Source: Allacma fusca (lineage: Eukaryota > Arthropoda > Collembola > Symphypleona > Sminthuridae). Taken from it: a DNA stretch of 64,000 nt. The notes under the pieces are model-generated. The model searched no databases, was not told where the DNA came from, and saw only the letters and a list, made by a program, of their open reading frames with translations. The stretch covers positions 46,549,067 to 46,613,066 of the forward strand of contig OX359245.1 in NCBI GenBank assembly GCA_947179485.1. The letters are read 5' to 3'. Positions 628-43,959 of the stretch are shown in pieces (positions within the stretch are counted from its first letter, which is position 1; each line of letters starts with the position of its first letter). Position numbers and translations under genes: made by a program.

Positions 628-930
628 GGATTTCAAAATTCAAAATTTCGCCTCTTCAAATTGATCTTTCCAGCATGTTACCCTAAAAATACGGGTAGAA
701 TCAGCAAAAATTTATTTTACTGGGTTGAATCACATCCGCTCTTCTGCTGCATATAGAATTGTACGTTCGATTAGTAAGATGTCATGGACGAAAATTTCAT
801 GGAATAGTCAATCTTTAAAATTAATTTCCTCGTTCGTACAGATTCATAAATTTTATAGCAAACAATTGTACATACCTTGAATGGAGATATGAGATCTATT
901 AGTTCAATTTCATTAGTGAGAGACAATTTT
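628..930 (-). pseudogene. IR0: relic of ionotropic receptor 5' end
   Basis: On the minus strand this stretch aligns by eye with the N-terminal coding region of the other IR copies. It shows the CCCGGG..TTTCAAAATTC block, the ACGGGTAGAATC block, the segment encoding the ATTCATGGACG-like tract, and the GAGATCTATTAGTTCAATT block that encodes the post-signal-peptide segment. Many indels destroy the frame. The region that should carry the signal peptide and start codon is deleted: the match jumps from the AGAGACAATTTT block straight to the upstream TGACACAAAACTTTTC flank. The rest of the gene (S1, membrane segments, S2) is absent. It is clearly dead. It lies about 0.96 kb upstream of WSD1, the same divergent arrangement as the intact pairs. 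Confidence 0.72.
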
Positions 931-984
931 AATTAAGATTATTTCTGACACAAAACTTTTCAATCTCAAGATTGTGCTGATAGC

Positions 985-1764
985 TTGCAAGTAAAATTCA
1001 TAATTTTATATCAATATAAATAATCTTTTTTTTTGAGAACATAAGATTTTTGGAATTAGTTCCCACATTTTAATTACGTCCAATAGCTACTCCTATCAAA
1101 TAATGATAATTATTTATTGACCTATATTCCAAAAATATGTTTCTTCTTTTACATTTGACAACCTCAATAAATTTGATTTGTTGTGATAAAAGTGTGTGGC
1201 ATGATAATATTATAACAGCAATTTTATATTTTCGTGTTTTAATTTAAAAATTAGAAGGACTGGACTGAGAGAATAATTTCTTTTGTTCCCTTATGTTTGG
1301 GAAATTATTGGGTATTATCTCCCCGGCGTAGAACTAAATCCCGAATAATTGTGTACATCTTGCATCCTAACTAACGTCAATAAATACGTTTTGTTGAGAT
1401 TATTGTGCGAAATAATATAATTAAAACAAAATTTTAACATTTGTATAAATAATAATTCAAAGTCGAGAACCAATACAAGGATTGCTTATGAGCAAACAGA
1501 TAACAACTTTGTGAATACTCAGATCAATCTATGCATTTTAATTTCAAAAAGCACGTCATATATACGATACAATTTTTGGAGGAAATTATGCGGAGAAGTT
1601 TGGTTTTCCCACCGGCAGATATTACAGATAAACTTCATTGATATTGGATAAGTTTTCCTGCGAAATCATGGAAATTTTATCAGTGGTAAATTTTTAGAGG
1701 CAAGATTTTATTTCAAGCATTTATTATCTTCTATGTGGTACCAATTATTACAAAACCCTCTCTT
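985..1764. other. Divergent IR-WSD intergenic block, unit 0
   Basis: No gene. The sequence matches the intergenic regions of the other units, including the conserved stretch near 1565-1700 (ATACGATACAATTTTTGG, then TTTTCCCACCGGCAG, then a TGGTAAATTTTTAG block). Equivalent blocks recur near 5405, 11620, 26275, 26810, 35440, 36250 and 41930. Confidence 0.6.
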
Positions 1765-1889
1765 AATAAAAGCAGAAGCATCCGGTGTTGAGGCAGCAGT
1801 ATGACCAAAACTGTCCCTTAACTTGTCTGAATTCAGAGTAATTTAGAAAGAAACCTTTTTCAGAGAATTTGAGTGCAGGCATTAAAACC
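1765..1889 (+). promoter_or_regulatory. Conserved WSD-proximal 5' block (WSD1)
   Basis: About 125 bases before the WSD1 start are shared with WSD4, WSD5 and WSD6: a GCAGAAGCATCCGG block, a GAGGCAGCAGTATGA block, then a TGTCTGAATTCAGAG segment that may hold the initiator, and finally CATTAAAACCATG at the start codon. I infer core promoter plus 5' leader from conservation and position only; no transcript evidence is available. Confidence 0.45.
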
Positions 1890-3842
1890 ATGTCCGTTTT
1901 TAGGAAGTCCTGTGACATGCTGTTTTTTACTTACTTTTTCTAACGACAGTCCCCGTGCTGGTACCTCTAGGATTGATCTTCCTGGTTCTCCCAGTTTTAC
2001 TGTACAGGTTAATCGTTTGGATCTTTGTCAGAACCTTTCGAAGGGATTTACTCTCTTTCGTATCCGGTGTGGCAGGAATTTACTTGGACCCCAATCCGAA
2101 TAAAAGCATTGCAAATTTCCTTGTCGGACTTGTTCTTCCTGGTGACATCTCCTCCGAGAGAATTTCCCAACTTTTTAAGGAACGAGTCCTGAATTTGAAA
2201 GACTCAAACGGAAATTTTGTTTATCAACGACTACAGCAGAGCGTAGCACGATTCATGGGCTATGCGTTTTGGAAGACTGACCCGAACTTTCTGGTAAGCA
2301 ACCACGTGAGAGACTACGACTATCAAGGAGACCTGCGATTATCTCAAACACCGGATGAACATGAAATCCAGCGTATTTGGCTATCCTTGGCTGGAGCTCC
2401 TTGGAAAACCAATCAGAGCCCTTGGGAGTACCTGGTGGTCCGAAACTACTGTCACGAAGGGTCAACGACACCTCACACTTTCATTATATTTCGCGTGGAT
2501 CATGTCTTTTGCGATTATTACAGCTTAATTGGGTTATTCCGGGTTGCATTTTGCTCACCTTTCACAACGACAAAACTTTCCGGGAATAAATCCGGTTTGT
2601 CTTGGAAACAATTGAAATCTGTTTTAACATTGCCGTATGACATTTCCGTCAAAATGTGTACCAATGAGAACAAAAAACGGGCATTAGGCGAACGCCAAGG
2701 TTCCAATAACTTGTGCTTCAACTATACTTCAACCATACACGTGGATGATATTAAACGCATCAGGAAAAACCATGGAGTGGCATATAACGCCGTGATTCTT
2801 TCCGCCATAAATGGCGCTATAGCAAGAGCGCTAAGTGACGCTGGAACAACTCCCCCTGAAAGTATAAATCTGGGTTATGTCCTTCCGTTACCCAATCATC
2901 CTGGAGGATTTAATTGTCATGTGTAATACACTTTTTTTTTGTTCCGTGTTCGAAACGGGTACAGCAACCATGAAGCCGTACTCGAATAGCGAGTACTATT
3001 AACTTTTGCTTGAAATTAATATTAAATTGATGTGCCCAAAATTTACTCGGGACCGAAATGGTTCTTGAACCGGTACCCTTATATAAATACTACCGTGTTT
3101 TTACACCAATATTACAGGAGCTTGTGCAGCAATAATAGCGGATCATGTTTGCAGCTAGCTTTATGTCAACTCTATGCTTGGCAGAACTTAGCTAGAGTGT
3201 TTTAACCCAGTAGTAGTCCTTGAAGTACCCAAAATATTTGGGGTATTTAATTCACGGGGACATATATCTATTTTACATAGTGAAACGTTTGTATTTGATT
3301 TTCAGGACACAAAGCACTATGGAACTACCATGCGGTGCAGATTCCCCTAAGAACCGTTTGCGTCAAACTCACGATATCCTTGTGGAGGGTGCGGGTTCTT
3401 TTTTGCCATTAATCTTAGCATACTTTTTACGCTTGCTGGCGCTAGCTCCTGTACCAATTACTTCAACTTTGGAACGTCGAATCCTAGTGCCCAGTAAATT
3501 CCTGCCCAGCTATTTCTTAACAAATATGCCCATCACAACTCACAAGGATTATGTGGAAGGGCTGGAAATTGTTGATGTTTTTCATGGCATATCCGTTACA
3601 TATGGAATGGGTATTGTTTTTATGGATTGTTACACACATTTCTATAGACAACAATTTGTGAAAGTAGTTTGAATGTATGTTTGAATTGGAACACTGAATG
3701 ATTTTCAGGACTTTTTATCTCCTCTTTGGGAAGTAATAACAAACAAAGATTCTTTTTTAACATGGATAAGTCCGTTTTTGGCGAGGAGGCGTCCGCTTTA
3801 AAATTTTCTACGTACTTCGAGGAAGAGCTGAAGGCCATGTGA
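1890..3842 (+). pseudogene. WSD1: WS/DGAT-like O-acyltransferase, one frameshift
   Basis: Three exons: 1890-2922, 3306-3610 and 3709-3842, with GT-AG borders at the same codon positions as WSD4-6. The product would be a WS/DGAT-type acyl-CoA:alcohol or diacylglycerol O-acyltransferase with a hydrophobic N-terminus. The SPWE motif, a variant active-site motif DHVFCDY (HHxxxDG in the bacterial family) and the C-terminal ERLRxTH and LTNMP motifs are all visible. Exon lengths sum to 1472 nt, one less than the 1473 of the intact copies. The missing base is in the T run at 1922-1927, which puts a stop about 17 codons in. The rest of the frame is open to the normal stop, so this is either a very young pseudogene or a homopolymer assembly error. 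A start inside the frame at 1955 would lose the N-terminal hydrophobic segment. Confidence 0.75.
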
Positions 3843-4142
3843 AGACCCCATGCCTCGATTGACCAGCGAAGCTAGATTACTATCTGGCATTAACACAATT
3901 CAAAAAACCATCTGCTATCTTTGTAATCAGAGTGTCACATAGCTTTACTGCAGAAATATTTATTGAAATTGGATTTATTTTTACTGACACAAAAATTTGT
4001 TTTGCTAAATTAAAATGAAACTACGAAGATATTGAAATAAAAAATCAGTTACATAAATTCAAAATCCTACCTGTATGTTAGACTTTCCAAAACCCAGTAT
4101 GATAAATGCAATAATTATTTTATTGTTTTCGTCAAATATTTT

Positions 4143-4775
4143 TTAAAATGTCACAAATATAAAACTCTGACCAAATGTCTGAAAAAACCACCTTGGATTG
4201 AAAGTTTTGATTGCATCGCGTAACTCCATCTCTTCGACGCAAAATATCTTTCCCGGACAGAACCACTGGTGACGAAAGAGTTGGATCATTTCATATTTTG
4301 GAGAGGTTGATTGCACGACGTTTCCCGTCAGAACATTATCATGCTTGTTATGCAGCCAGGCTGGGAGAATGTTAACCTGGTCCATGGTTAGTGTTTGTGT
4401 TGATAAAACTACATAAATTAAGAATTCCCGGGCTTTCAAAATTCTGGATTTTACAACGTCAAATGTTTCGTTGTCAGACGTTTCCTTAAAAATGCGGGTA
4501 GCATCCACAAGATTTATTTTACATGGTTGATTCACGTCTGCAGTTCTGTTGTGGATTGAATTGTACGTTTGGATGAGTGGAATGTCTTGGACAAACATTT
4601 CATGCAATAGGAAATCTTTGAAATTAATTTCCTCTTTTGTGGGATCTCCAACCTTGTAGTACACAATCGTGCAGTTCTTGAGGGGAGATATAAAATCTAT
4701 TAGTTTAATGCCTATAGTGGGTGACAAATACAAGACAAAATTAATAAGAAATAAAATCCCTGATAACTGTTCCAT
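4143..4775 (-). pseudogene. IR1: ionotropic receptor, 3' two-thirds missing
   Basis: Open frame from MEQLSG (start 4775) for about 210 residues. It comprises a signal peptide and the N-terminal extracellular domain up to the RWFFQTF motif, then a few unrelated residues and a stop. Homology to the other copies ends abruptly near 4160, just beyond the motif. The ligand-binding S1 part, all three membrane segments, the pore loop and S2 are absent, so no channel can be made. The upstream flank (4776 to about 5560) is the usual IR flank. I chose the internal methionine because every copy begins with M-E-(R/Q/K)-L-S-G followed by a hydrophobic run. A secreted N-terminal fragment is conceivable but unsupported. 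Confidence 0.75.
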
Positions 4776-5560: not shown

Positions 5561-5740
5561 TACTCGGTATAATGGATGGCTCTACAACGGATGTTTAGTT
5601 ACACCGGGGAGATTTATTTGTGCTTAACAATATTGCATACAGCGGAAATTTGTATACTAGAAAATTAGTTATAACGGACACACTTTGAAACCCTTTAGAA
5701 ACAATTTGTAAATGAAATTTTTTTTCTGGGTAACATTTTT
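5561..5740. repeat. Decayed TAACGGA-type repeat, shared by units 1 and 2
   Basis: The stretch with GGATGGCTCTACAA, GCATACAGCGG, GAAAATTAGTTATAACGG and ACACTTTGAA recurs at about 11755-11910 downstream of the IR2 flank. The TATAACGGA wording resembles the ends of pogo/Tigger-type DNA transposons, but I see no clean inverted ends. It most likely marks duplication of a whole block from unit 1 to unit 2. Confidence 0.35.
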
Positions 5741-5819
5741 CGGGGCACACGTTTACCCTACTGAAAATAGCATAAACTTCCTTACTTTGGCAGAACTCAG
5801 CATAAACTAATGTATGTAT

Positions 5820-6126
5820 GTAGGTATTTCTGAGGAGTCGATAATTATTTATGTACAGTACATATTTAGTTATCCCCCCTGGAGGTGCGATAATCCAGAA
5901 CTAATTGCGCTCGCCCCATTACAGGTTTACTGTTAGCTCCCTTTGAATCGTCTTGTTGCCATGAGAAAAGCAACAAGTGCATTCATAGGAGCTTATGTGA
6001 CAGATGCCGTAGTAGTTATGCCCTCATGCAGGTATACCAGTCTCTGCTCTATGTACAATGGGCACTCGCACATGATATGCTCCATTGACTCATCTGCCAG
6101 CCCACATTTGCAGGCTGGAGATCTCT
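5820..6126 (-). mobile_element. 5'-truncated LINE, C-terminal ORF2 remnant
   Basis: Read on the minus strand, 6126 to 5933 encodes a tract with the pattern CKCGLADESMEHIMCECPLY, then a helical stretch ending TRRFKGS and a stop at 5933-5935. The C-x-C-G...ES-x-EH-I-x-C-x-C-P-L-Y pattern is typical of the cysteine/histidine tail after the reverse transcriptase of Jockey/R1-like non-LTR retrotransposons. An in-frame stop at 5993-5995 and the missing upstream part show that it is dead. The 100 bases after the stop (5820-5932) are probably its 3' UTR. It sits between IR1's flank and the 3' end of IR2, where units lose their WSD gene. Confidence 0.6.
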
Positions 6127-6130
6127 GCTT

Positions 6131-6375
6131 ACAAATCATCGAAAACCACTTGAAATTCGCGTTTAAACTTTATTCGAATGTCAAAACACACTATTTCGGT
6201 TTGAAATTCAAGCGATTTTGCAGTTGTGGTTCGAATTTGGTTTGATAATTCCGTTTCATAGCATTCGGTTTGATTCGTATTCGAATCGAAAATCTGAATA
6301 ATGTTCATATTCAAATGCAGGTCTGAAAGGGTGCTAAAAACAAAGGTGGATATTTCAATAATTCATTACAATCAT
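6131..6375. repeat. TTCGAAT-rich low-complexity stretch
   Basis: Repeated variants of TTCGAAT and ATTCGGTTTGATTCG, with no coding sense. It resembles the motif arrays at the ends of the hAT-like elements elsewhere in the window, but I found no matching pair of ends. Confidence 0.35.
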
Positions 6376-7422
6376 TCAAGTCATTCTTGAACGAAACCTG
6401 ACATCATTATACCTTTTGATAATTTCGCAGATAAGATTCCTGCCTAGATCTTTCCACATCTCGTATATCAGTAAAATCACACAAGATACCAGGCACACAA
6501 CGAATATCATTAAGACACTCAAGGCTTCTGTGGATTTCAAGGAAAATACGAACGGCTCAATTGGTACTTCCCAATGAATGTAATCGTCAAATTGGCTTAC
6601 ACCCAATTCTGTTAATTACTCGCGCTCATTCAACAGTCTTAAGTAAATTGATTCATACTCGTCATAAATTGCAGTAAATCCCGTTGAAACTAAACGGTTC
6701 ACGTAGTTGTAGAAAATTCTCGCCAGTGAACCGTCAAACCGCCAATATATGTTTTTAAGGTAGAGTAATTGATTCCCTATTCTGCATCTAGTGCTGTAAT
6801 TTGTCCTTTTAGTATTGTATTGTACTTTGGCGAAAAGTACAAAAGTAGTACAACTAAAATATTGTTTTGTACTCCGAGTTTTGTTTTTGTTTTGTACTTC
6901 TATCAGATTGTTTTTGTTTTTGTACAATCTGTATTGTATTGTTCTAAGGTTCTAGAAGACGCTAGAAATTTGCTAAAGTGATAGTTGTATCTGAGGTCAA
7001 GAGCACGTAGGAATTGATTTGTGCAACTTTAGTTGTTTAAAAATTACGTGAAAGAACAAAAAACCAGTCATTGACTAATCTCCCATAAGAGATGCATGAG
7101 TCTGTTTTTTTGAAAACGGCCACCGTGAAAATCACTATTTTTTGAAACACTTTTAGATGTGCCCAACGGATGCACAATAAGATGAAAAAAATTCCAAGAA
7201 ATTGTTTTCCTCTAAATCTCAATAGGAAGGTCAAAAACCCGAAAAAACCCGAAAAATACTCTAATTTATTACAGCCTTACCAATTTGAATATTCAAAAAC
7301 TGGCTATCTCGAATATGTTGCACAACTAACTCCTACATTCATGATTTTTTTCCGCATCGTAGCATCAAAATTTCGATTTTTTTTGAAAAATCACATGGAC
7401 ATTTTTGAAATTTCGGAATTTT

Positions 7423-7541
7423 TTTTGACTGCCAGCAGACGCAAAAAAACGCTTTTTTAAAACTCTAAACTCAAGAAAAGCATAATAACAGTAGTTCAAA
7501 ATTTTGAAAAAGCGTTTTTTTGCGTCTGCCGGCAGTCAAAA
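7423..7541. repeat. Long hairpin inside hAT-A
   Basis: The left arm (7423-7457) and right arm (7507-7541) are inverted copies of about 35 bases, centred on GACTGCCAGCAGACGC and its complement, with one clear mismatch and a loop of about 49 bases. It may be a compact foldback element or the junction of two inverted element ends. Confidence 0.7.
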
Positions 7542-8715
7542 CGGGCAAAATCCGAAGCGGGTAATTTATATACATATCTGCTTAAGGCGTCGTGCACATA
7601 ATTGCGTTCCCAAATATGACTGTAACCCTGCGCAATCTCAATGGATTTATGTGCAAATAAATCAGTATGACCAATGCGGTGAACAATGGTGTTACAAAGG
7701 TCAAAGTCAGCCCCCACTAAAATGGGTGGGGTACAACCATGTAATGTGTGCCCCCCTGAATTTTGTAAAGCAACAACAAATAATTTTTTAATAAAACAGC
7801 GAGGAAAAAAGAAGCCGCTAACCAAGAGCCTACTACAACTAAATGAGAGTGGCAGGCGGCATGCTCGTCTAGATCCATGCACGCATGGATTGTATACGTA
7901 TACATACAGCCAGCATTGCTTGCTGTAGTAGACGAGGAGAGGAGGTTCCTCCCTACGTAATACACGGGCAGCGCCTTCCATGTAAATAGAAGGCCACATC
8001 ACGCTCCATTCTTTGGTGCCGTGCCGCAGCTCAAATAGTCCCATTTTATTTTCTTAATAATTTCGGATTGGTTCGCTACAGCCCTTTCATATTTGGACTC
8101 AATATCATACACATTATTGAAAATGTGTGTATGTACTTTATAAGTACATACCTAAAAAAATGCTTCACTATGGGAATGGCCGTCTTCAAAAAAACAGACT
8201 CGCATTGAATCTGTTGACGGTCGAATTTTGAAGGGTGCAATTCTGTGGCACCAACCTATTTGTGAATAATCCCTGTAATAACCACATCGTAATTTCCAGA
8301 ACAACATAATTTCATAAACAATATTCACTACCATTGCTTAAAATTTGAATGGATAGAGTAGACGCTTGGGCTCTGATATCTATATTTTCAATTTGCTCAG
8401 CCGTTGGCTTTTACCACCTATTTCATCGATGTAGAAATGTCCCCTATGCGTGGACTACATTTACAAATCGCATAGTTCGTTTGTCAGACTAGGTCTTTTG
8501 TCTTTGTTAGACACAGACTAGATTTCTCCAGGTCAACATTTAAACCATACGGTTAGCCAATTTTATTGATCAGTACCGATTCATTGGTATCATATCTGAT
8601 GCCATTGAATTGTCATTAGCCAGTGTTGATTTAATTCGTGACCTTTTTCATGACGTCTTACTAATCCACATTAAATGTAACCTACAACTAGTACATCTTA
8701 TCGGTGGCGTCTAAT

Positions 8716-8790
8716 AATCAATATAATATTAATAATAATAATAGGGTTTTATTGGTTGATATAGTAGCCTCAGCCGTTACAACCTTTAAT
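8716..8790 (-). mobile_element. LINE 3' tail with (ATT)n
   Basis: On the minus strand this reads GGTTGTAACGGCTGAGG, then an AATAAAACCC stretch, then (ATT)n. The same layout (GGTTGTAAGGGCTTAGGCC, then AATAAACATT and ATT repeats) recurs at about 32030-32090. This is the look of non-LTR retrotransposon 3' ends with a trinucleotide tail, here 5'-truncated and inside hAT-A. Confidence 0.5.
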
Positions 8791-8821
8791 AATCAATATG
8801 GTAACAGTCAAAGTCATGCAA

Positions 8822-8990
8822 CTATTAGTGACACAGTAAGGTCAATCTGAGGTCATGTGACTACTAGTGACACAGTAAGGTCAATCTGAGGTCATGTGAC
8901 TACTAGTGACACAGTAAGGTCAATCTGAGGTCATGTGACTACTAGTGACACAGTAAGGTCATGTGACCTCAAATTGACCTTATTGGGTCA
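8822..8990. repeat. 39-bp minisatellite carrying AGGTCA direct repeats
   Basis: Units start at 8822, 8861, 8900 and 8939, each 39 bases and nearly identical (CTACTAGTGACACAGTAAGG, then TCAATCTGAGGTCATGTGA). Each full unit contains AGGTCA, five bases, AGGTCA. The fourth unit runs into an inverted partner (TGACCT, five bases, TGACCT, about 8967-8983), so the array ends in a hairpin. Confidence 0.85.
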
Positions 8991-11002
8991 CCAATAGTCT
9001 CATGACAGATTACGGTTTTAAGGGGCGCATGACCTATAATGAAACTTGGTGAGTAACTAGTAGTAAATCACCTATGATTGACTTTATTGGCGCATTAATG
9101 GTCACATGACACTAGAATGACATACTCAATGTAAGTGTATATTTTATATGGGCGATAGTATGCGAATCTGCCAATAATTAGTCAATGCCCAGTTTTTGTG
9201 CTTTGACGTGTTTTTTCACGATTCCAGTTACACAAATCAATTCCTATGTGCTCTAGAAATCTATTACAACAATCACTTTAGTAAATTTCTAGCGTCTCTA
9301 GAACCTTCAAACAATACAATTTGGATTGTATTGTTTTTTTCAATTCCTGTTTTGTTTTTGTTTTAGTTTTGTATCTCGAAAATGGATATTGTTTGTTTAG
9401 TTTTGTACCAAAGACAAAAACAATACAAAAGTACAAAACTAAACGAGTACAATATTACAGCACTATCTGCATCGACATCGCCCGGAACGCCGTTTCCATG
9501 TGAATACCTTTGCGGCCGACTCTAAAATTCGAGATAAATGGCAAAAAACAAATTTACGATTTTTCGAAATGTAACCGATAACATCTTTCGGATTCGAGAA
9601 ATTAGTTTTCGTTACGGCAGTCTCCCGAAGTGTACGCAAGTAGGACCCGTTTTTAAAATCAGACACTGTTTCATCATTAAACAGCCGGTGCACCCAGGGA
9701 TCATCGATCAGTAGTCTGTAATTTCTCTCTGCTAGGTCTTTGAAGGACCTCGGACTGTCATCTTCTGGGTGAACCAGAACGCTTTCATAAAACGATGCGT
9801 ACATGATGCTAATAAGTAGGGCAACAAGGGTTCATAAAATCAATAATTTATGCGTCGACCTTTCCAAATGAACCTGGTTGAGCAACGCTGCAAACATGCT
9901 TAACACTCGTGAATATACACTTTGATTCCCGGACTTTCTCGTAAGTAGGACAGTAATTGCGACAGTTATTCCAACTAGTCCTATTGTGGGACCATAAAAC
10001 ACTGTCAAAATTTGTAGGATATTAATATCACCGTTACGAATACAGGAGCAATCGAGGAAATTTAGGCGGTCCCAAGGTACGGTAATAAGTAATACAGATG
10101 GTTCCGTTATATCGATGATACCGGCATATGCGGCAATTACTGGTGAGAACAGGCCCTCTTCTTGAGCACGTTAGTTATGGGGAGTAAAATTGAACCTTTT
10201 TGTCATTTCCTCTAGAAATTTCAAGCGTGGGGATCCCACTAAGTTCACATCAATCAATGAGGAACTCATTGCCCACATATATCGTAGACCTTTGTGAGGA
10301 ATCAATTCGAATATTTTGTCTTGTACTTGAAAAGTAGACAAAATTTAAGAAAATTGAAGAGTTAAAATTTTTTCTAGCCATAAAGCTCTGACTAAATGTC
10401 TGAAAAAACCACCGTGGGTTGCCATTTTTTATTTCGTCGGGACACAGCTCCATCTCTTCTGCGCAGATTTGTGTTTTTGGGCAGAACCACACGTGACGAA
10501 AGAGTTGGATCATTTCGTAATTCTGAGAGGATGATTTCACGACGGTCGCTGTCAGAACATTATCATGCTTGTTTTGCAGCAGGACTGGGAGAATGTTAAC
10601 CTGTTTCGTGGTTAGTGTTCGGGTTGACATCACAACAAAAATTAAGATTTCCCGGGCTATCAGAATTCGGGATTTTACCACGTCATATTTGTCCTTTTCG
10701 TACTTTTTCTTATGAATACGGGTAGCGTCCACAAAATTTATTCTACAGGGTTGATTCACATCCGCAGTTCTGTTGTGGATTGAATTGTACGTTTGGATGA
10801 GTGGAATGTCTTGGACAAACATTTCATGCAATAGGAAATCTTTGAAATTAATTTCCTCTTTTGTGGGATCTCCAACCTTGTAGTACACAACGGTACAGTT
10901 CTTGAAGGGAGCCATGAAATCAATTAGCTTAATGCCTTTAGTCGGTGACAAATACAAGACAAATTTAGTAAGAATTAAAAACCCTGATAACCGTTCCATC
11001 AT

Positions 11003-12196: not shown

Positions 12197-13462
12197 TAGA
12201 GCTACTTGTGGGAACGAAAAGTTTGATCCCATTCCCGAACCCTATCCCGAAATTCGGGTCATCATGATTTTCGGACTCACACCCGAACCCGTTCCCGAAA
12301 TACTGGGATCGGGTGCGCTAAAATGTTTAAATCGTTGACCTCAAACCCGATTCCAATCCCGAACCTGGAATCGGATAAAATCTGCTCCCAATCCCGATCC
12401 CGAATCCCTTGAACCCGGACTCGTTCTCGGGACCAGTGCAGTTAGTGTAAACCAATTTTTATCTTCACATTTTTATTGATTTAACAATACTTATGAATGC
12501 GCGTCATGCAACAACAGATGTAGGCACTATTAAAAATCATTGCTACGTGATAATTTGAGGCTTCGCGTAGGAAGGCGTCAGCCGCGGCCGTCAAAGTAGA
12601 AAAAAATTTGGTTTTTTTCGAAATTTCAGAATTTTTTTCGAAAAAACTATCTGGCCTATTTCAACCAAATATACGACAACCATTACGTTTTACATAAACA
12701 ATATTCGCAAAACGTTTCATTGAAATCGATTCTGCAGTTTTAGAGATAAATCATTTGACATAAAGTCTTAAATTTCAAGAATTTTTTTTGAAAAACCTAT
12801 CCCGCCGATTTCAACCAAATGCGAACTCAGCCTTACTTTTGATACAAGTAATGCCCACAAAAAATTGAAATCGGTTCAGTAGTTTTTGCTTATTCGTGCG
12901 GAGGGACACACGGACGTACGGACACGGCTATTTTACTAGGGGGCTGACTCCACCCTAAAAATGGTCATTATACTAAGAGTCTGGTCTGTGTTGCCGAAAA
13001 AGATGCAGAAAGATTGCTTAGACGATTCCCACCATTGCGTTTTGCAATGACTTTCCTCTTGCAAGTTAGAGTAGGTGGAAATCACTACTACGCTATTCCA
13101 GCTGAAAAATACAAAACGGCTCAATCCGCGTACGCAAAATTACTATCTCAACACTTTCACGAAGCAACCCGTGCATGATTTATATTGTTTTCTCCGCTAG
13201 ATGGATGCGCATAGTTCCAGGGAATGTGATGCGTGTAACGGGTGTGGGAACGAAGATGTTCCCGGTTCCCGACGGGAACACAAATACTTTCATCAAGCTT
13301 GAACCCGTTCCTAAACCCGGTCCCGTTCCCGAAATCCCGGGTCTGCTGAGTATATTCTTGTACCTGGTCCCAAAGTATTTGGGAACATTAATTTGACACC
13401 CGAACTCGAACCCGTTCCCGAAACAAGGTCCCGGGTGCATCCCGATCCCAAAAGTAGCTCTA
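12197..13462. mobile_element. hAT-B: non-autonomous hAT-like element
   Basis: A 1266-bp element with ends TAGAGCTACTT (left) and its complement (right). It is flanked by a perfect 8-bp duplication, ATTTAGAT, at 12189-12196 and 13463-13470. Both ends carry long arrays of variants of CCCGAACCC and CCCGATCCC, on the same strand at both ends rather than inverted. The centre is occupied by a copy of the dispersed GGGTGGCGTCA repeat (12532-12960). There is no transposase frame. Confidence 0.85.
12532..12960 (+). repeat. Dispersed repeat X, copy 1 (nested in hAT-B)
   Basis: It starts at AAAAATCATTGCTACGTGATA and ends at GGGGGCTGACTCCACCCTAA. It shares with copy 2 the start block, the blocks of the type TTTCAACCAAATxCGAAC and TTTTxGAGATAAxTxxxTT, the CGGACGTACGGACA block and the end. 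Two near-identical internal segments suggest an internal duplication. It is inserted inside hAT-B, so it is younger than that element's arrival or arrived with it. Confidence 0.7.
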
Positions 13463-14849: not shown

Positions 14850-15218
14850 CTGTAAAATTATTTAAAAAGCGATTCAATTGAACAGCGAACAAATTACAAA
14901 GATTTTATACTTGAACTAAATTCAGAGATTTTAATTATCTATCCGATTTCCAGATTGCTGCCCGAGATTAATCTCTACACTGAAAGTCCACAACCACGAT
15001 CCAGCTTTTGATATTAATTCAAGTGATTTAGGATTGAACGTGTTCACAGCATACAAAACTCCCGTGGATTTTTAAATTGTGTCATAAACGCAAACGTAAA
15101 GCAAAAAAATACAAATTAAAGCAACAATCATTTGCAAAATATTTAAACTTTAATCAAGCAATCTAACTTTGTAATAAAAAATACTGAACAATATTACTTC
15201 AGAAATTGTTATAATATG
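14850..15218. other. Spacer, possible lost upstream exons
   Basis: No convincing exon. If the DUF4806 fragment was once complete, its 5' exons should lie here or beyond repeat X copy 2. Confidence 0.35.
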
Positions 15219-28092: not shown

Positions 28093-28170
28093 ATATGAGT
28101 AGCGAGAGGTTTTCTAAGTCATATGGTAAAATCAATGCATGGTTTTAGAATTCTCATATGTTTTTCCTAT

Positions 28171-28968: not shown

Positions 28969-29143
28969 GACTAACCAGAGATCCATCCATAACAATATTA
29001 TTTTATATATAAGAAGGGACAGATGTGTCAAAGGTAATGAGTAATTCTGGCAGTTGCGCAGGCGGCAGTTACATGTGACAGTTGTGATTTTGGTAGTTGT
29101 GATTTTGGCAGTTGTGAGGGTGGCAGTACGCCCCATTGAAACC

Positions 29144-32021: not shown

Positions 32022-32029
32022 TGTTATAA

Positions 32030-32374: not shown

Positions 32375-32382
32375 TGTTATAA

Positions 32383-32749: not shown

Positions 32750-34696
32750 TTAAGTCATTCTTAAACGTTTCCTGACATCATTGATTGATCCTTTGATTGT
32801 TCCGCAGATAAGTATCCTACCTAAATCTTTCCATATCTCATATATCAGTAAAATCAAACACGTTACCAAGCACACTACAAATACCATTAAGACACTCAAG
32901 GCTTCCGTGGATTTCAAGGAAAATACAAATGGCTCAATTGGTACTTCCCAACGAAGGTAATCATCAAATTGACTCACACCCAGTTCTCTTAAATACTCGC
33001 GCTCATTTAATATTTTTAAGTAAATTGATTCATACTCATCATAAATCGCAGTAAATCCCGTTGAAACCAAACGGTTGACGTAATCATAGAAAATTCTTGC
33101 CAGTGGACGGTCAAACCGCCAGTATATGTTTTTAATGTAGAGTAATTGATTCCCTATTCTGCATGGACATCGCCCGGAACGCCGGTTCCAGGTAAATACC
33201 TTTGCGGCTGCCTCCAAAATTCGTGATAAATGGCACAAAACAAATTTAGGATTTTTAGAAATATAATTAACAACAGCTTTCTGATCCGAAAAATTAGTTT
33301 TCGTTAGGGCAGACCCCTTAAGTTTACCTAAGTACGACTCGTTTTTAAAACCAGATACAGTTTTATCATTAAACAGCCAGTGTACCCAGGAATCATCGAT
33401 CAATAATCTGTAATTTCTCTCTGCTAGAGCTTTGAAAGACCTTGGAGTGTCATCTTCCGGATGAACAAGAATGCTTTCATAAAATGATGCGTACATGATA
33501 CTAATCAATAGGGCTGCGTAGGTCCATAAAATCAATAATTTATGTGTCGACCTTTCCAAGTGAACCTGGTTGAGCAGCGCCGCAAACATTCTTAACGCCC
33601 GTTCATATACACTTTGATTCCCGTATTTTCTTGTAAGAAAGACCGTTATTATCACAGTTATTCCAATTAGTCCTATTGTGGGTCCATCAAAGACTGTCAA
33701 AATTTGAAGGATATTAATATGACTGTTAGGAATACAGGAGCAATCGAGGAAATTCAAGCCTTCCCAAGGTACGGTAATAAGTAATACGGATGGTTTCGTT
33801 ATTTCGAGGATACCCGCATATGCCGCAATTACTGGTGTGAGTTGGTCCCCATGCCGAACACGAATTTTATGGGGAGTAAAATTAAACCTTTTTGTCATTT
33901 CCGCTAGAAATTTTAAACGTGGGGATCCCGCCAAGGTCACATCAACCAATGAGGAACTCATTGCCCACATATATCGTAAACCCTTGAGAGGAAGCAAATT
34001 CCATATTTTGTTCTTTTCTTTAAACGTTGACACAAGGGATACTGACCAAGAGTTAAAATTTTTTCCTGCCACAAAACTCTGACTAAATGTCTGAAAAAAC
34101 CACCGGGGATTGCCATTTTTTATTATTGCGTCGGGTAACAGCTCCATCTCTTCGGCGCATATTTGTGTTTCTGGACAGAACCACACGTGACGAAAGAGTT
34201 GGATCACTTCGTAATTTTTAGAACCAGATTGCACGACGTTCGCCGTCAGAATATTATCATGCTTGTTCTGCAACCACACTGGGAGAACGCTAACCTGGTT
34301 CGGGGTTAGTGTTCGGGTTGACATCACAACATAAATTAAGATTTCCCGGGCTTTCAAAATTCTGGATTTTACCACGTCAAATTTACCATCTTCAGATGTT
34401 TCCTTAAACACACGGGTAGCGTCCGCAAAATTTATTTTACATGGTTGATTCACGTCTGCAGTTATGTTGCGGATTGAATTGTGCGTTTGGATCAGTGGAA
34501 TGCCATGAGCGAACATTTCATGGAGAAGTAAGTCTTTGAAATTAATTTCCTCTTTTGTAGGATCTTCAATATTGTAGTACACAATTGTACAGTTCTTGAG
34601 GGGAGACATGAAATCTATTAGTTTAATGCCTTTAGTGAGAGACAGATTTAAGACAAAATTAATAAGAATAACAATTCCTGATAAACTTAGTTCCAT
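32750..34696 (-). CDS. IR5: divergent ionotropic receptor, intact
   Basis: The cleanest IR in the window: an uninterrupted frame of 648 residues from MELSLSG (34696). Signal peptide about 1-22; N-terminal domain about 23-235; RWFFQTF at 198-204; S1-like region about 236-330 with the FLAEMTKRFNFTP pattern near 263-275. First membrane segment about 335-354; pore-like segment with LLNQ near 374-377; second membrane segment about 386-405 with the YASFYESILVHP tail; LAERNYRLL at 424-432; S2 about 433-590; third membrane segment about 597-620; cytoplasmic tail ending RMT. The order and lengths fit arthropod ionotropic receptors, which form ligand-gated cation channels in chemosensory neurons. Like many divergent IRs it has no introns. 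Ligand and co-receptor are unknown. The upstream flank has an E-box palindrome 349 bases from the start. Confidence 0.83.
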   Translation of the reverse strand: MELSLSGIVILINFVLNLSLTKGIKLIDFMSPLKNCTIVYYNIEDPTKEEINFKDLLLHEMFAHGIPLIQTHNSIRNITADVNQPCKINFADATRVFKETSEDGKFDVVKSRILKAREILIYVVMSTRTLTPNQVSVLPVWLQNKHDNILTANVVQSGSKNYEVIQLFRHVWFCPETQICAEEMELLPDAIIKNGNPRWFFQTFSQSFVAGKNFNSWSVSLVSTFKEKNKIWNLLPLKGLRYMWAMSSSLVDVTLAGSPRLKFLAEMTKRFNFTPHKIRVRHGDQLTPVIAAYAGILEITKPSVLLITVPWEGLNFLDCSCIPNSHINILQILTVFDGPTIGLIGITVIITVFLTRKYGNQSVYERALRMFAALLNQVHLERSTHKLLILWTYAALLISIMYASFYESILVHPEDDTPRSFKALAERNYRLLIDDSWVHWLFNDKTVSGFKNESYLGKLKGSALTKTNFSDQKAVVNYISKNPKFVLCHLSRILEAAAKVFTWNRRSGRCPCRIGNQLLYIKNIYWRFDRPLARIFYDYVNRLVSTGFTAIYDEYESIYLKILNEREYLRELGVSQFDDYLRWEVPIEPFVFSLKSTEALSVLMVFVVCLVTCLILLIYEIWKDLGRILICGTIKGSINDVRKRLRMT

Positions 34697-35741: not shown

Positions 35742-35854
35742 TTTTTCTTGAGGGGCTGCATGATATCTATTATATCTATTAGCCTAATGCCACTCCTAAG
35801 AGACAAATATAAAGCAGATTATTTGATAGTAAAAATCCTCTCTAGCCGTTCTAT
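35742..35854 (-). pseudogene. IR5b: relic of a second IR 5' end
   Basis: Minus-strand sequence matches codons 1 to about 36 of the IR genes (CTTGAGGGG block, ATCTATTAG block, GAGACAAATATAA block, then the start region). The start codon has become ATA (TAT at 35852-35854) and a stop follows within about 12 codons. Upstream of it (35855-36000) the normal IR flank begins again. So unit 5 once had two IR 5' ends, and this one is nearest to WSD5. Confidence 0.72.
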
Positions 35855-36496
35855 CTTGGCGGAAGTCAGCAATTTCAAAGCCCAGCCAAAATGTTTTTTT
35901 GAGTCGCAAAAATGAAGCAAGCACCTCAATATTGTGCTATTAGTTTGTAAGTAAAATTTATTTATTGCGAGTAAATTTGTTTTATGCAATTAGTTTGCAC
36001 AGTTTATAGTAACTACTGCTACGAAATTATAATACAGGTATTTCGAAACCCTATTTTTTCTTTTACATTTTGTAGGCTCGTTGAATAAGTTTTGTTGAGA
36101 TAAGTGTGTGACATAATAGTAATAAACACATAACACAAATTAGGAATTTTCAAGCTTTAATTAAAACTTTAGATTAAATAAACGTAATTTTTATGAACAA
36201 AAAGATACCAAACGTGATTAGTCAGATCAATCATTGTATTTTCATATCAAAAAGTATGTACTTCATGCGATACAATTTATGGTAAGTTTTGGAAACAAGT
36301 CTGGTTTCCTCATCGGCAGATTTTACAGATAGAATAATCTGCAATTCGACGTGTTTTCCTTACATAATCATGAGAAGCTTTGTCGAAGGACGCATTTGTA
36401 ATGAAATTGTATTTCAAGCATTTTTTATTCTTTCTCATTTGGTTTCTTTTGGTTTTTTAATCCTCTAACAATTAAAAACTCTGTCGAATAAATTAG
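35855..36496. other. IR5b-WSD5 divergent region
   Basis: No gene. It consists of IR-type flank plus a further copy of the CACTTCATGCGATACAATT ... TTTCCTCATCGGCAG block (about 36250-36330). Confidence 0.5.
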
Positions 36497-36648
36497 TCAA
36501 AAATAAACCATAAGTAATGCAGAAAAAGCGCAAGCACCCGGTCCTGAAGCAGTAGTATGATTAAAGATCTCCGTTGACTAGTGCGAAAGCAGTGGTTTTT
36601 AGAAGGCGATCAAATCCTGAAAATTTCTTGAGTCTAGACATTAAAACC
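36497..36648 (+). promoter_or_regulatory. Conserved WSD-proximal 5' block (WSD5)
   Basis: This is the undisturbed version of the block. It has AAAAATAAACCATAAGT, GCGCAAGCACCCGG, CAGTAGTATGAT, CTCCGTTGACTAGTGCGAAAG, then CATTAAAACC before ATG. It probably covers the promoter and leader. Confidence 0.45.
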
Positions 36649-38391
36649 ATGTCCGTATTTAGGAAGTTCTGTGACATGATGTTTTTTTACTTATTTTTTC
36701 TAACGACATCACCCCTATTGGTACCTCTGGCTTTGATCCTTGGGGTCCTCCCAGTTTTACTGTACAGATTAATCGTTTGGGCCCTCGTCCGAACCTTTCG
36801 AAAGGATTTACTCTCTTTCGTATCCGGTGTGGCAAGTTTTTACGTGGACCCCAATCCGAATAAAACCATTTCAAATTTCCTCGTCGGATTTGTTCTTACT
36901 GGTGACATCTCATCCCAGAGAATTTCCCAACTTTTCCAGGAACGAGTCCTCAATTTGAAAGACGCCAAAGGGAATTTTGTTTATCTACGACTACAGCAGA
37001 GCGTAGCACGATTCATGGGCTATGCGTTTTGGAAGAATGATCCAAACTTTCTGGTAAGCAACCACGTGAGAGACTACGACTATCAAGGAGACCTGCGTTT
37101 ATCTCAAACTCCGGATGAACATGAAATCCAGCGTATTTGGCTATCCTTGGCTGAAGCTCCTTGGAAAACGAATCAGAGCCCTTGGGAGTACCTCGTGGTC
37201 CGAAACTACTGTCACGCAGGGACAACGAAACCTCACAGTTTAATAATATTCCGCGTGGATCATGTCTATTGCGATTATTACAGCTTAACTGGGTTATTCC
37301 GGGTTGCATTTCGCTCACCTTTCGCCACGGTAAAACTTTCCGGGAAAAATACCGGCTTGTCGTGGAAACAATTGAAATCGCTTTTAACGATCCCATATGA
37401 CATTTTCGTTAAAATGTGTACAAATGAGAACAAAAAAACCCCATTGGGTGAACGACACGGTTCCAGTAACTTGTGCTTTAACTATACTTCAACCATACAC
37501 GTGGATGAAATTAAACTCATCAGGAAAAACCATGGAGTGGCATATAACGCCGTGATTCTTTCCGCCATAAATGGTGCGATAGCAAGAGCGCTAAGTGACG
37601 CGGGAGTAACCCCCCCTGAAAGTATAAAACTGGGTTATGTCCTGCCCTTATCCAATCATCCCGGTGGATTTAATGTACATGTGTAATCCACTTTCTTAAT
37701 TTTTATTTTTAACCAGTCCAAGCACAGGTTTTGCCAATAATTATTTTGGTACACGATATTAGAACAGTTGCAACTGGGCACATTGTACGTTTTTATTTGG
37801 AACAATTCAATGATGCTGTTAGCTTTTAAATAGTAATTGAATATGTGAATTTTCAGGACACAAAGCACTATGGAACTACCGTGCTATGCAGATAGCCCCA
37901 AAGAGCGCTTGCGTCGAACTCACGATATCATTGTGGAGGATGCAGGTTCCCTTTTACCCCTGATCTTGGCCTTCTTCGTGCGTTTGATGTCACTCGCTCC
38001 ACTGCCAATCACCTCAACTTTACAAGACAAAATTCTAGTGCCCAGCAAATACCTACCCAGTTATTTCTTAACAAATATGCCCATCACAACTACCAGGGAG
38101 GATGTGGACGGGTTGGAAATTGTTGATCTTTTTCATGGCATATCCGTTACATATGGAATAGGTATGATTTTTATTTATTATAACATAAGTTTGTACACAC
38201 ATCCGGAAGTTGTTGGAATGGGTGAATTTTTGAATTGGAACTCTCAACGATTTCTAGGTCTCTTTATCTCCTCTTTGGGAGTGAATGAGAAGAAAAGAGT
38301 CTTTTTCAACATGGATAAGTCTGTTTTTGGCAACGAGGCATCCGCTAGAAAATTTCCAAAATACTTTGAGGAGGAGCTTAAGTCCCTGTGA
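36649..38391 (+). CDS. WSD5: WS/DGAT-like O-acyltransferase
   Basis: Exons 36649-37682, 37857-38161 and 38258-38391; 1473 nt, 490 residues. Same domain order as WSD4: membrane segment(s) at 11-45, SPWE 177-180, DHVYCDY 204-210, GYVLPLSNHPGG 329-340, ERLRRTH 361-367, LTNMP 416-420, GISVTYGIG into LFISSLG across the last splice. Introns are 174 and 96 bases. Intron 2 is a multiple of three and has no stop in frame, so its retention would add 32 residues near the C-terminus without breaking the frame. The conserved borders and the lack of this insert in the sister copies favour normal splicing. The first His of the usual HHxxxDG motif is Asp in every copy here. Confidence 0.82.
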
Positions 38392-39286: not shown

Positions 39287-41303
39287 TTAATTGGGATTCC
39301 TTGTGCCATATAACTGCGTTCTAAGAGAAAAGTGCATCCTTCTATAAATCACTTTGTTATAAACGCATTTAACGCATTCGCGGACCTTCATCACATACTT
39401 TTTTGCTATAGTCCTGCAGATAAGATTCCCTCCTACATCTTTCCATATCTCATACATCAGTAAAATCAAACAAAACACCAAGCACACTACAAATACCATT
39501 AGCACACTCAAGGCTTCCGTAGATTTCAAAGAAAACACAAACGGCTCAATTAGTAATTCCCAATGAAGGTAATCGTCAAATTGACTCACACCCAATTCTC
39601 TTAAATACTCGCGCTCATTGATTAATCTTAAGTAATCTGATTCATACTCGTCATAAATCGCAGTAAATCCCGTTGAAACTAAACGGTTGACGTAATCATA
39701 GAAAATTCTCGCCAGAGGGCGGTCAAACCGCCAGTATATGTTTCTAATGTAGAGTGATTGAAACCCTATTCTGCACGGACATTTTCCGGAACGACGGTTC
39801 CATGTGAATACTTTTGCGGCTGCCTCTAAAATTCTAGATAAATGACACAAAACAAATTTACGATGATTAGAAATGTAACTGATAACAGCTGTTGGATTCG
39901 AGAGATTAGTTTTCGTTATAGCAGTCTCCCTGAGTGTACGCAAGTTGGACCCGGTTTTAAAATCAGAAACAGCTTCATCATTAAACAGCCAGTGTACCCA
40001 GGAATCATAGATCAATAATCTGTAATTTCTCTCTGCTAGGGCTTCGAAGGACCTCGGAGTGTCATCTTCCGGATGAACAAGAGCGCTTTCATAAAACGAT
40101 GCGTACATGTTGCTAATCAATAGTGCAACAAAGGCCCATAAAACCAACAATTTATGCGTCGACCTTTCCAATTGAACCTGATTGAGCAAAGCTGCAAACA
40201 TGCTTAACGCCCGTGAATATACGCTTTGATCCCCGTATTTTCTTGTAAGAAAGACCGTAATTACCACAGTTATCCCAATTAGTCCTATTGTGGGTCCATC
40301 AAACATCGTCAAAATTTGCAGGATGTTAATATCACTGTTAGGAATACAGGAGCAATCGAGGAAATTCAAGCCTTCCCCAGGTACGGTAATAAATAATACG
40401 GACGGCTCCATTATACTGATGTTACCCGCATATGCGGCAATTTCTGGTGTGAGAAGTCCCCGGTACCGACGAAGAATATGAATGGGAGTCACATTGAACC
40501 ATTTTGTCATTTCCGCTAGAAATTTTAAATGCGTGAATCCCTCTACTGTCACATCAGCCAATGAGGAACTCATTGCCCACATATATCGTAAACTCTTGTG
40601 AGGAAGCAATTCGAATATTTTGTCTCCTTCCTGAAAAGTAGACACAAGTGATACTAGGCCAGAGTTGAAATTCTTCCTAGACATAAAGCTCTGACTAAAT
40701 GTTTTAAAAAACCACCGTGGGTTGCCATTGTTTATTTCGTCGGGACACAGCTCCATCTCTTCGGCGCAGATTTGTGTTTTTGGACAGAACCACACGTGAC
40801 GAAAGAGTTGGATCATTTCGTAATTCTGAGAAGTTGATTGCACGACGTTTGCCGTCAGAACATTATCATGCTTGTTTTGCAGCCGGACTGGGAGAATGTT
40901 AACCTGTTCCGTGGTTAGTGCTCGGGTTGACACCCCAACAAAAATTAAAATTTCCCGGGCTTTCATAATTCTGGATTTTACCACGTCATATTTGTCCTTT
41001 TCATACTTTTTCTTATAAATACGGGTAGCGTCCACAAAATTTATTTTGCAGGGTTGATTCACATCCGCAGTTCTGTTGTGGATTGAATTGTACGCTTGGA
41101 TGAGTGGAATGTCATGGACGAACATTTCTTGGAGAAGGGTATCTTTGAAATTAATTTTCTCTTTCGTTGGATCGTGGATAGTGTAGTACACAATTGTACA
41201 GTTTTTTTATGGGAGATATGAAATCTACTAGTTTAATGCCTTCAGTGAGAGACAAATATAAGAAAAATTTAGTAAGAACTAAAATCCCTGATAACTTTTC
41301 CAT
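39287..41303 (-). pseudogene. IR6: ionotropic receptor with one early frameshift
   Basis: From the conserved start MEKLSG (41303) the signal peptide and first 35 or so codons are normal. One extra base in the run of seven T residues near 41203 (A on the coding strand) then breaks the frame, where other copies read P-L-K-N-C. The total span of 2017 nt is one base over a multiple of three, consistent with a single insertion. After it the frame is open for 634 codons through all domains and membrane segments. The C-terminus is about 30 residues longer than in IR3 or IR5 and unrelated to theirs after LIC. Without correction, only a form lacking the signal peptide could be made. Because the lesion is in a homopolymer it may be an assembly error, in which case this is a functional IR. 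Confidence 0.75.
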
Positions 41304-42130
41304 CTTGTAAGAAGTCAACAAATTTAAAGCACAGTCAAAATGTTCTTATTTTAGGTTTCGTTCTGAAACAAAACTTTTCAACCGAACTACAGTGCTGCTG
41401 GTCCGCAAGTAAAATTCATTCATTCTTGATAAATAATTCTAATGCGACTGTAGTTTGCACATTTTATTTACGTTCAGTATCTAGTCCCATCGAACCATGA
41501 TATTGGCATATTTTTCAAAAATCTATTTTCTCAGTTACATTTAGGCACGAACAGTTATTGGCATGCAGTATTTGTCACGTTTTATGCAACACGGGTTCGA
41601 AACTAAAATGAAGCTTTGAGCAATGCCTTGGTGAATATTTGTCCTTTTAGATAAACACACGTTTGGAATCATTAAATATTTATTCAAATATGTTAATCGT
41701 TATTATGCCCGGTGCATGTAGCTGATTTCATAAAAATTTTATACGCCTCGCATTCCCAGCAACCCAAAAAGTACATATTTTGCTGTGATAAAATTCCATT
41801 GAAACTAAAATTTTGCATTTCTGATACCTTAATTATACGTTTGAAACAATTGAAAGGAATTTTTATAAGCAAAAAGATAACAACTTTTTGAATATTCCCA
41901 TAATTTGTTTTTTTCATAATAAAGTGCACTTCATACCATAAAATTTTCCGGAATAAGTCTGGAATTCCCACCAAAACACATTACCGATAAAATGTATTGT
42001 AATTAGAACAGTTCGCAAAAGACAATCATGCGAATTTTTGTTGGATCGTAAAACATTTGCAAAACCCTTTGAATCTCAAGTAATTCTTGTTTTCCATTTT
42101 ATAACAATAGTACGTGTATTGCCTTAATAT
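41304..42130. promoter_or_regulatory. IR6-WSD6 divergent intergenic region
   Basis: The shortest and cleanest version of the divergent spacer: 976 bases between the two start codons, including the WSD-proximal block. It has the IR-side CAAGTAAAATTCATTCATTC block, a degraded palindrome CACACGTTTG (41655-41664), the TTCATACCATAAAATTTTCC and TTCCCACCAAAACAC block near 41930, and then the WSD block. A shared control region is inferred from the repeated layout. Confidence 0.5.
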
Positions 42131-42279
42131 AGTCAAAAATGAACGATAAGTAACGAAGATTAAAGCACAGGCATCCGGAACAGAAGCAGGAGCACGTTAA
42201 AAGTCTCCGTTCACTAGTCTGAATTCAGATTGATTTAAAAGGAGCTCAATTTCAAAAAATCAGTTTAAACATTAAAATC
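42131..42279 (+). promoter_or_regulatory. Conserved WSD-proximal 5' block (WSD6)
   Basis: AAAAATGAACGATAAGTAAC, GCATCCGGAACAGAAGCAG, CTCCGTTCACTAGTCTGAAT, then CATTAAAATC before ATG. It matches the blocks of WSD1, WSD4 and WSD5. Confidence 0.45.
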
Positions 42280-43959
42280 ATGGCCGTATTTAGGAAGTTC
42301 TGTGACATGCTGTTATTTTACATATTTTTTCTACCCACAGTACCTCTGCTGTTAACTCTAGTTTTGATCTTCTGGCTCCTCCCAGTTTTGCTGTACAGAT
42401 CCATCGTTTGGGTCCTCGCCAGGACGTTTCGGAAGGACTTACTCTCTTTCGTATCAGGTATTGCAGGAGCTTACGTGGACCCCGATCCGAATAAAACCAT
42501 TTCAAATTTCCTCGTCGGATTTGTTCTCCCTGGTGACATCTCATCCCAGAGAATTTCCCAACTTTTTCAGGAAAGGGTCCTCAATTCCAAAGACGCAAAT
42601 GGGAATTTAGTTTATGAACGACTACAACAGAGTTTGGCACGATTCATGGGTTATGCGTTTTGGACGAACGATCCGAACTTTATGGTAAGCAACCACGTGA
42701 GAGACTACGACTATCAAGGAGACTTGCGTTTATCTCAAACTCCGGATGAACATGAAATCCAACGTATTTGGCTATCCTTGGCTGGAGCTCCTTGGAAAAC
42801 GAATCAGAGCCCTTGGGAGTACCTCGTGGTCCGAAACTACTGTCACGCAGGAACAACTGCACCTCACAGTTTAATAATATTCCGCGTGGACCACGTCTAT
42901 TGCGATTTTTACAGCTTAATTGGCTTACTCCAGGTCGTATTTCGCTCACCTTTTACAACGACAAAAATTTCCGGGAACAAAACCGCCTTGTCGTGGAAAC
43001 AATTGAAATCTCTTTTGACCTTGCCGTATGCCATTTTTGACCAAATGTTTACCATCGGAAACAAAAAAAGGCCGTTAAGTGAACGTCAGGGTTCCAGTAA
43101 CCTGTGCTTCAACTTTACTTCAATCATACCCGTGGATGATATTAAACGCATCAGGAAAAACCATGGAGTTGCATATAACGCTGTGATTTTATCCGCTATA
43201 AATGGCGCTATAGCAAGAGCGCTAAGTGACGCTGGAGCAACCCCCCCTGAAAGTATAAATCTGGGTTATGGACTGCCCTTATCTAATCATCCCGGAGGAT
43301 TTAATGCACATGTGTAATGCACCCTCATTTGATTTTACGCATTGAGCGGAATGTTTTGAACAACTTTGCGCGTGTTGTCGGAAGGCGGGAAAATTTTGAC
43401 AACGACAATTATTTGTGTGGAATTTCAGGACACAAAGCACTATGGAACTACCGTGCTATGCAGATAGCCCCAAAGAGCGCTTGCGCCGAACTCACGATAT
43501 CATTGTGGAGGGTGCAGACTCCCTGTTACCATTGGTCTTTGCCTACTTCTTGCGTTTCCTGGCACTAGCACCTGTGCCAATCATTTGGACTTTGCAGCGC
43601 CAAATCCTAGCGCCCAGTAAATTCCTGCCCAGTTATTTCTTAACAAATATGCCCGTCACAACTACCAAGGAGAATGTGGACGGGTTGGAAATTGTTGATA
43701 TTTTCCATGGCGTATCCGTTACACATGGAATAGGTAGGTTTTTATGGATTACTGTATAATTTCGTAAAAGCATTTTACGGAAGTTGTTGAATTATTTTTA
43801 AATTGGAATTTTTGTTGATTCCTAGGACTTTTTATCTCCTGTTTGGGAATAAATAACAAACAAAGATTCTTTTTCAACATGGATAAGTCCGTTTTTGGCG
43901 ACGAGGCATCCGCTAAAAAAATTTCAGTGTATTTTGAGGAGGAGCTTAAGGCCCTGTGA
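42280..43959 (+). CDS. WSD6: WS/DGAT-like O-acyltransferase
   Basis: Exons 42280-43313, 43429-43733 and 43826-43959; 1473 nt, 490 residues. The domain order matches WSD4 and WSD5. SPWE, the active-site variant DHVYCDF (Phe for Tyr at the position after the Asp), YNAVILSAINGAIARAL, GYGLPLSNHPGG, ERLRRTH, LTNMP and GVSVTHGIG|LFISCLG are present. This is the most diverged of the three intact copies, especially in the N-terminal membrane region and around residues 215-270. Introns are only 115 and 92 bases, lacking the degenerate GGGTACC-rich insert that swells intron 1 in WSD1 and WSD4. It is the last gene of the array; nothing recognisable follows for 20 kb. Confidence 0.82.

Follow-up and report, generated by a model that had tools for sequence, protein, structure and literature searches.

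Self-comparison of a 64,000-nucleotide stretch of the Allacma fusca genome (contig OX359245.1, positions 46,549,067 to 46,613,066 of the forward strand; hereafter the window) with tblastn and blastn revealed a tandem array extending from position 621 to approximately 44.3 kb. On the minus strand an intronless gene resembling those for ionotropic receptors (IRs) occurs eight times, in whole, broken or relic form; on the plus strand a three-exon WS/DGAT-like gene (WSD) occurs six times, relics included. The two genes lie back to back in six of the eight units (0, 2, 3, 4, 5b and 6). Because both members are present in these six units, the original prediction of six or more divergent pairs, relics included, stands in its coordinates and its count, as do the two relics that it had placed beside whole or broken partners: IR0 next to WSD1 in unit 0 and an 86-bp WSD relic (relic B) next to IR3 in unit 3. 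IR-like copies were mapped by self tblastn and blastn, and their start codons were located separately. On the left the view ends at the first base of the window, and on the right the array terminates at about 44.3 kb, directly after the 3′ flank of WSD4. The features of the array are as follows.

621-940, minus strand: IR0, N-terminal relic, unit 0; 72-76% identical by blastn to six other IR copies
933-1889: spacer P0, 957 bp, lying between IR0 and the start codon of WSD1; homologous to P6 over its whole length
1890-3842, plus strand: WSD1, unit 0; exons 1890-2922, 3306-3610 and 3709-3842, splice sites as in WSD2-4
4116-4775, minus strand: IR1, unit 1, N-terminal part only (self tblastn/blastn); the spacer runs on to about 5706 and no WSD follows
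6331-10999, minus strand: IR2, unit 2, pseudogene that a 2.68-kb insert divides in two and that has four in-frame stops
15826-16816, plus strand: WSD relic A, unit 2, paired with IR2; it retains the end of exon 1, then exon 2 and the 3′ flank, in blastn pieces 68-83% identical to WSD2/WSD3
17446-20376, minus strand: IR3, unit 3, split by a 986-bp insert and open on either side of it
20926-21011, plus strand: WSD relic B, unit 3, paired with IR3; its 86 bp come from exon 2/intron 2 and are 80% identical to 31099-31184 of WSD2
23923-25809, minus strand: IR4, unit 4, open, 629 aa; final residues removed by a 1.27-kb insert (22639-23910)
29144-31343, plus strand: WSD2, unit 4, intact, 490 aa; exons 29144-30177, 30809-31113 and 31210-31343
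32753-34696, minus strand: IR5, unit 5, open, 648 aa; spacer to about 35600, without a WSD of its own
35744-35899, minus strand: IR5b, unit 5b, 5′-end relic, followed by its own spacer as far as WSD3
36649-38391, plus strand: WSD3, unit 5b, intact, 490 aa; exons 36649-37682, 37857-38161 and 38258-38391
39290-41303, minus strand: IR6, unit 6, with a one-base frameshift in an A run near the N-terminus, otherwise open over 639 codons
41304-42279: spacer P6, 976 bp, from the start codon of IR6 to that of WSD4; homologous to P0, P1, P2, P5 and P5b and, in pieces, to P3 and P4
42280-43959, plus strand: WSD4, unit 6, intact, 490 aa; exons 42280-43313, 43429-43733 and 43826-43959

The homology between copies extends beyond the coding sequences. 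Spacers P0 and P6 are identical in 63.5% of aligned columns, whereas 20 shuffles of P6 averaged 45 and did not exceed 48.8, and the identity of P1, P2, P5 and P5b to P6 is 64.9-73.9%. The lowest values were obtained for P5b against P1, P2 and P5 (50.0-50.7%), hardly above the shuffles; P3 and P4, which are cut or interrupted, were omitted from the pairwise spacer comparison. The convergent stretch, from the 3′ end of WSD to the 3′ end of the next IR-like gene, is also homologous between copies in pieces. As the copies share their spacers and, piecewise, their convergent flanks, what was duplicated was a single block, about 5.6 kb long from the stop codon of WSD3 to that of WSD4. The copies, all in one orientation, thus form tandem repeats of a two-gene unit, and the proposal that the pair was amplified as a unit is supported by homology in the coding sequence, in the spacer and in some stretches of the convergent flanks.

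One unit had been missed. The relic IR5b, which was not listed in the original prediction, lies with its own spacer (35744-36648) between the intact IR5 and WSD3; it was recognized by a weak tblastn match (E 0.009) and by blastn, in which it is 61-65% identical to the starts of five IR copies and, over 57 bp, 72% identical to IR0. IR5 and WSD3 look like one intact pair, but the relic between them divides them into two units. Because IR5b adjoins WSD3 upstream, the nearest partner of WSD3 is a dead gene, and the intact IR5 is part of a unit without WSD. WSD is likewise absent from unit 1, where the sequence at 5700-6340 resembles no array unit in a blastn comparison of the window with itself.

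Synonymous divergence (dS) was 0.32-0.34 for the IR4/5/6 pairs and 0.26-0.38 for the WSD2/3/4 pairs. The bootstrap ranges overlap, which is consistent with joint duplication of the two families. The ratio of non-synonymous to synonymous rates (omega) was 0.30-0.41 for the IR4/5/6 pairs, 0.30-0.52 for all 15 pairs of IR1-IR6, where the highest values come from pairs with the poorly aligned IR1 fragment; the six pairs of WSD copies gave 0.20-0.33. Within IR4/5/6, omega was 0.40-0.55 before the first span and 0.23-0.25 in the spans plus S2, indicating less constraint N-terminally. Judged by these sequence comparisons, both genes are under purifying selection. IR0 (except in one short-segment tree), IR5b and WSD relics A and B were omitted from rates and trees, and IR1 also from the half-gene trees. 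Best matches among the IR-like copies are mosaic: in single 200-nt windows IR3 and IR4 reach 96% identity, IR1 and IR2 93%, and IR2 and IR6 92%. This suggests that copies in the array recombined or underwent gene conversion.

Three of the six WSD copies are whole, and WSD1 is one base short of intact: codon 12, early in exon 1, lies in a T-rich run and lacks a base, which causes a frameshift. WSD2, WSD3 and WSD4 have a common three-exon structure with GT-AG introns. Stops and frame changes in exon 2 look like pseudogene lesions, but a second GT-AG intron, 92-98 bp in length and revealed by alignment of the copies, accounts for them; WSD2-4 are therefore intact. A 1,965-bp insert (27169-29133), which ends 10 bp before the start codon of WSD2, separates this gene from the ancestral spacer; the insert carries a degenerate 25-bp minisatellite (28177-28582 and on). 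A repeat family is found in two direct copies (12528-12961 and 15215-15830) in the gap before relic A and in one inverted copy (21595-21842) behind relic B, adjoining both WSD deletions.

Two of the eight IR-like copies, IR4 and IR5, are whole, and IR6 is one base short of intact; the single-base lesions of IR6 and WSD1, both in homopolymer runs, could be assembly errors. The inserts in IR2 (6788-9465, 2.68 kb) and IR3 (18282-19267, 986 bp) each have inverted ends and an 8-bp target duplication, which we take to fit hAT elements; the former also contains a 39-bp tandem repeat (8813-8961). In all seven aligned IR rows (IR5b is not in the alignment) a CAG follows a T-rich stretch approximately 55-75 bp upstream of the start codon and could be a splice acceptor of the 5′ untranslated region.

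Assignment of the plus-strand gene to the WS/DGAT-like proteins, as originally predicted, was supported by two family models. The C-terminal Pfam domain WS_DGAT_C was matched by all three intact copies (best E 2.1e-07; WSD2 at 22.2 bits against a cut-off of 20.7), as was TIGR02946 (best E 1.4e-18), although the 54.9 bits of WSD2 are far under the subfamily cut-off of 309.95. WS_DGAT_C was the sole Pfam family matched: the N-terminal wax ester synthase-like acyltransferase domain was found in none of the three at E up to 10. When PDB was searched with the aligned WSD copies, no chain was returned at E up to 10, and a scan of genome contigs with the same alignment gave 43 pattern matches, none of which was a relative. 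The HHxxxDG site reads DHVYCDY or DHVYCDF in WSD2-4 and DHVFCDY in WSD1; the second His and the Asp (HxxxD) are thus kept in all four copies, and the first His and the Gly are replaced. Tyr or Phe in place of this Gly is unusual. Asp at the first position is known from the active thraustochytrid enzyme TrWSD5, according to the available text of PMC5513132. An archaeal WS/DGAT with Asn there appears functional in the available portion of PMC11948995, where the second His is described as catalytic and replacement of either His as lowering the activity of the A. baylyi enzyme. The WSD proteins therefore resemble WS/DGAT O-acyltransferases in the C-terminal domain of the three intact copies and in HxxxD of WSD1-4, but differ from them in the first His and Gly, in the lack of an N-terminal Pfam match and in the low TIGR02946 score. 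As the HxxxD residues are kept, acyl transfer is predicted and acyltransferase activity of WSD is likely; the enzyme would probably join acyl-CoA to an alcohol or to diacylglycerol.

The identity of the minus-strand product is less direct. Its order of segments, namely a signal peptide, about 300 aa, a span, a short gap, a second span, about 185 aa, a third span and a short tail, fits an IR. In IR5 hydropathy placed the N-terminal segment at 3-26 and the spans at approximately 332-350, 387-411 and 600-618, and IR4 is alike; hydropathy did not show a pore helix, and a weaker peak at 289-307 of IR5 is not seen in IR4. The IR5 motif after span 3 (MYASFYES...PRSFKAL) resembles the iGluR pattern. 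Sequence searches did not add to this. Pfam searches with the IR copies recovered no iGluR or IR family, even at E up to 10 (one further search was run at 0.1), and the weak hits obtained (Holin_BlyA, E 0.07-5.6; DUF6456, 0.13-0.21; DUF2157, 8.5) are below cut-off or chance-like. No iGluR was among the matches of five PDB sequence searches, and the weak matches returned (H2B, interleukin-34, a Dot/Icm substrate, adiponectin receptor and ATP synthase OSCP) were dismissed as chance. An AlphaFold2 model of IR5 built from three sequences (pLDDT 30.9, pTM 0.21) was unusable for the fold. Divergent IRs are often missed in such searches.

These negative searches would suit a membrane protein of another kind, with several spans and a large outer domain, and so would the failed model. 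We consider such a protein unlikely, as the signal peptide and span order, the motif after span 3 and the intronless, tandem and pseudogene-rich organization agree with divergent IR genes. In the available text of PMC6938034, the IR expansions of Campodea augens are described as intronless and arranged in arrays, with segmental duplications on occasion and with 901 of 2,424 being pseudogenes. The A. fusca array resembles these expansions, as far as that text describes them, in its intronless open reading frames, copy arrays, many pseudogenes or fragments and segmental duplication; it differs in that most IR-like copies here accompany a non-receptor enzyme gene and in that the IR-like protein matches no IR model. 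At least 15 IRs are given for the Holacanthella genome in the available part of PMC5644144. The IR label of the original prediction is accordingly based on topology and not on any Pfam or PDB match; we judge it probable, and the protein, from its topology, is probably a ligand-gated channel subunit.

The remainder of the window, from 44.3 to 64 kb, contained no array sequence by self blastn or tblastn, tblastn hits there being at chance level only. The 11 longest open reading frames of this flank had no Pfam match above cut-off, and neither had two open reading frames in the unit 2 gap, one within the insert of IR2 and one that overlaps relic A in its 3′ flank. A tRNA search with bacterial settings found none, and Rfam gave no match at the gathering score. 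AT-rich minisatellites are present between 46 and 56.5 kb (46579-46842, 49433-49919, 51286-51938, 53606-53795 and 56118-56293), with no recognized gene among the flank open reading frames searched.

The explanation that we favour, with moderate confidence, is that a pair of neighbouring genes was multiplied by unequal crossing-over in a cluster of fast turnover and then underwent birth and death, so that the linkage reflects hitch-hiking. In the ancestral state an IR-like and a WS/DGAT-like gene would have stood head to head with about 0.96 kb between their start codons. The block of both genes, spacer and flanks would then have been copied in tandem to at least eight units, most likely by unequal crossing-over, after which copies would have diverged, exchanged sequence, received insertions of transposons and decayed gene by gene, each protein presumably doing its own job. 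The layout, the block homology, the gene structures, the omega values below 1 and the lesions can be read from the DNA directly; from them we infer crossing-over as the mechanism, and hitch-hiking rather than functional coupling as the cause of the linkage. From general knowledge of tandem multi-gene units that arose by unequal crossing-over, the array is like them in homology of genes and spacers, decay of copies and mosaic exchange, and differs in the particular combination of genes.

Several observations weigh against this explanation. Six WSD copies still stand beside IR copies and four of them are intact or one base off, which exceeds what would be expected of mere ballast; both genes are under constraint; and the IR identity is unconfirmed by sequence. 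The P1-P2 spacer is 84.4% identical, above the fourfold-site values calculated for other pairs (none was computed for P1-P2). Gene trees are poorly resolved and provide no unit-by-unit test of joint descent: the WSD quartet has a support of 53 and the IR half-gene trees disagree. The trees are no clean test because the mosaic IR identities indicate exchange among copies.

A possible, less probable explanation is that selection acted on the copy number of one gene and the other hitch-hiked. WSD, of which proportionally more copies are intact, would be the likelier target, through dosage or diversity: three of six copies are intact and one has a single-base lesion, against two open copies and one single-base lesion among eight for the IR-like gene, and its omega is somewhat lower. 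This difference in the intact share is small, however, the single-base lesions on which it partly depends lie in homopolymer runs where assembly errors could occur, and omega of the IR-like gene is likewise well below 1.

It is rather improbable that the pair is a functional module, in which the spacer would be a bidirectional control region, the two products would couple the making and sensing of a surface or secreted lipid, and amplification would diversify both. The head-to-head arrangement kept in six of eight units, the spacer length of about 0.96 kb retained in P0 and P6, the high P1-P2 identity and the wax esters described in Collembola cuticle in the available text of PMC10284698 all agree with such a module. 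That six WSD copies have persisted next to IR copies, and that both genes are constrained, also speaks for it. The state of the partners does not. Scoring as near-intact, by the analyst's judgement, those genes that are whole or one base from it (IR3 was scored broken by its insert), we found both partners near-intact in two units (4 and 6), only the IR-like gene in one (5), only WSD in two (0 and 5b) and neither in three (1, 2 and 3). Retention of one partner was not associated with that of the other (Fisher p = 1; n = 8, a small sample), and the partners appear from these sequences to be lost independently. We also compared spacer identity with that at fourfold sites of the adjoining gene pair for the six like-for-like spacer pairs that were comparable: 73.9 vs 76.9% for P5-P6, 69.8 vs 76.8 for P2-P6, 72.0 vs 75.0 for P2-P5, 63.5 vs 73.8 for P0-P6, 64.9 vs 78.0 for P5b-P6 and 61.9 vs 74.6 for P0-P5b. 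As the spacer was below the fourfold sites in all six (61.9-73.9% vs 73.8-78.0%), there is no extra constraint over the spacer as a whole, although short motifs are possible. Moreover, the spacers of units 4 and 5 are broken by inserted or rearranged sequence, and unit 6 alone combines an uninterrupted spacer with two near-intact genes. The suggestion that the pair couples production and detection of a lipid, or shares control, is therefore not supported by the Fisher test, the spacer identities or the insert in front of WSD2, and the evidence on joint function leans against it. A stronger form, a make-and-sense cassette in which a lipid-ester enzyme and a receptor tuned to its product share the spacer, and paired duplication diversifies signal and receptor, their linkage being protected from recombination as in self/non-self recognition loci, is very unlikely.

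The combination of IR-like and WSD genes appears undescribed in the literature searched: none of the 20 matches listed of 852 contains both 'ionotropic receptor' and 'wax ester synthase', and 'ionotropic receptor' is absent from the 25 listed of 109 in a further search. In bark beetles, according to the available text of PMC13134222, no acyltransferase emerged from a screen whose queries included plant WSD1. If the pair were functional, the array would be a genetic link between production and detection of a lipid signal in an animal, and co-evolution of signal and receptor would be directly testable. If, as we favour, the linkage is hitch-hiking only, the array would be a clean example of how turnover of a receptor cluster can multiply an unrelated enzyme gene, with the partners decaying independently within one block.

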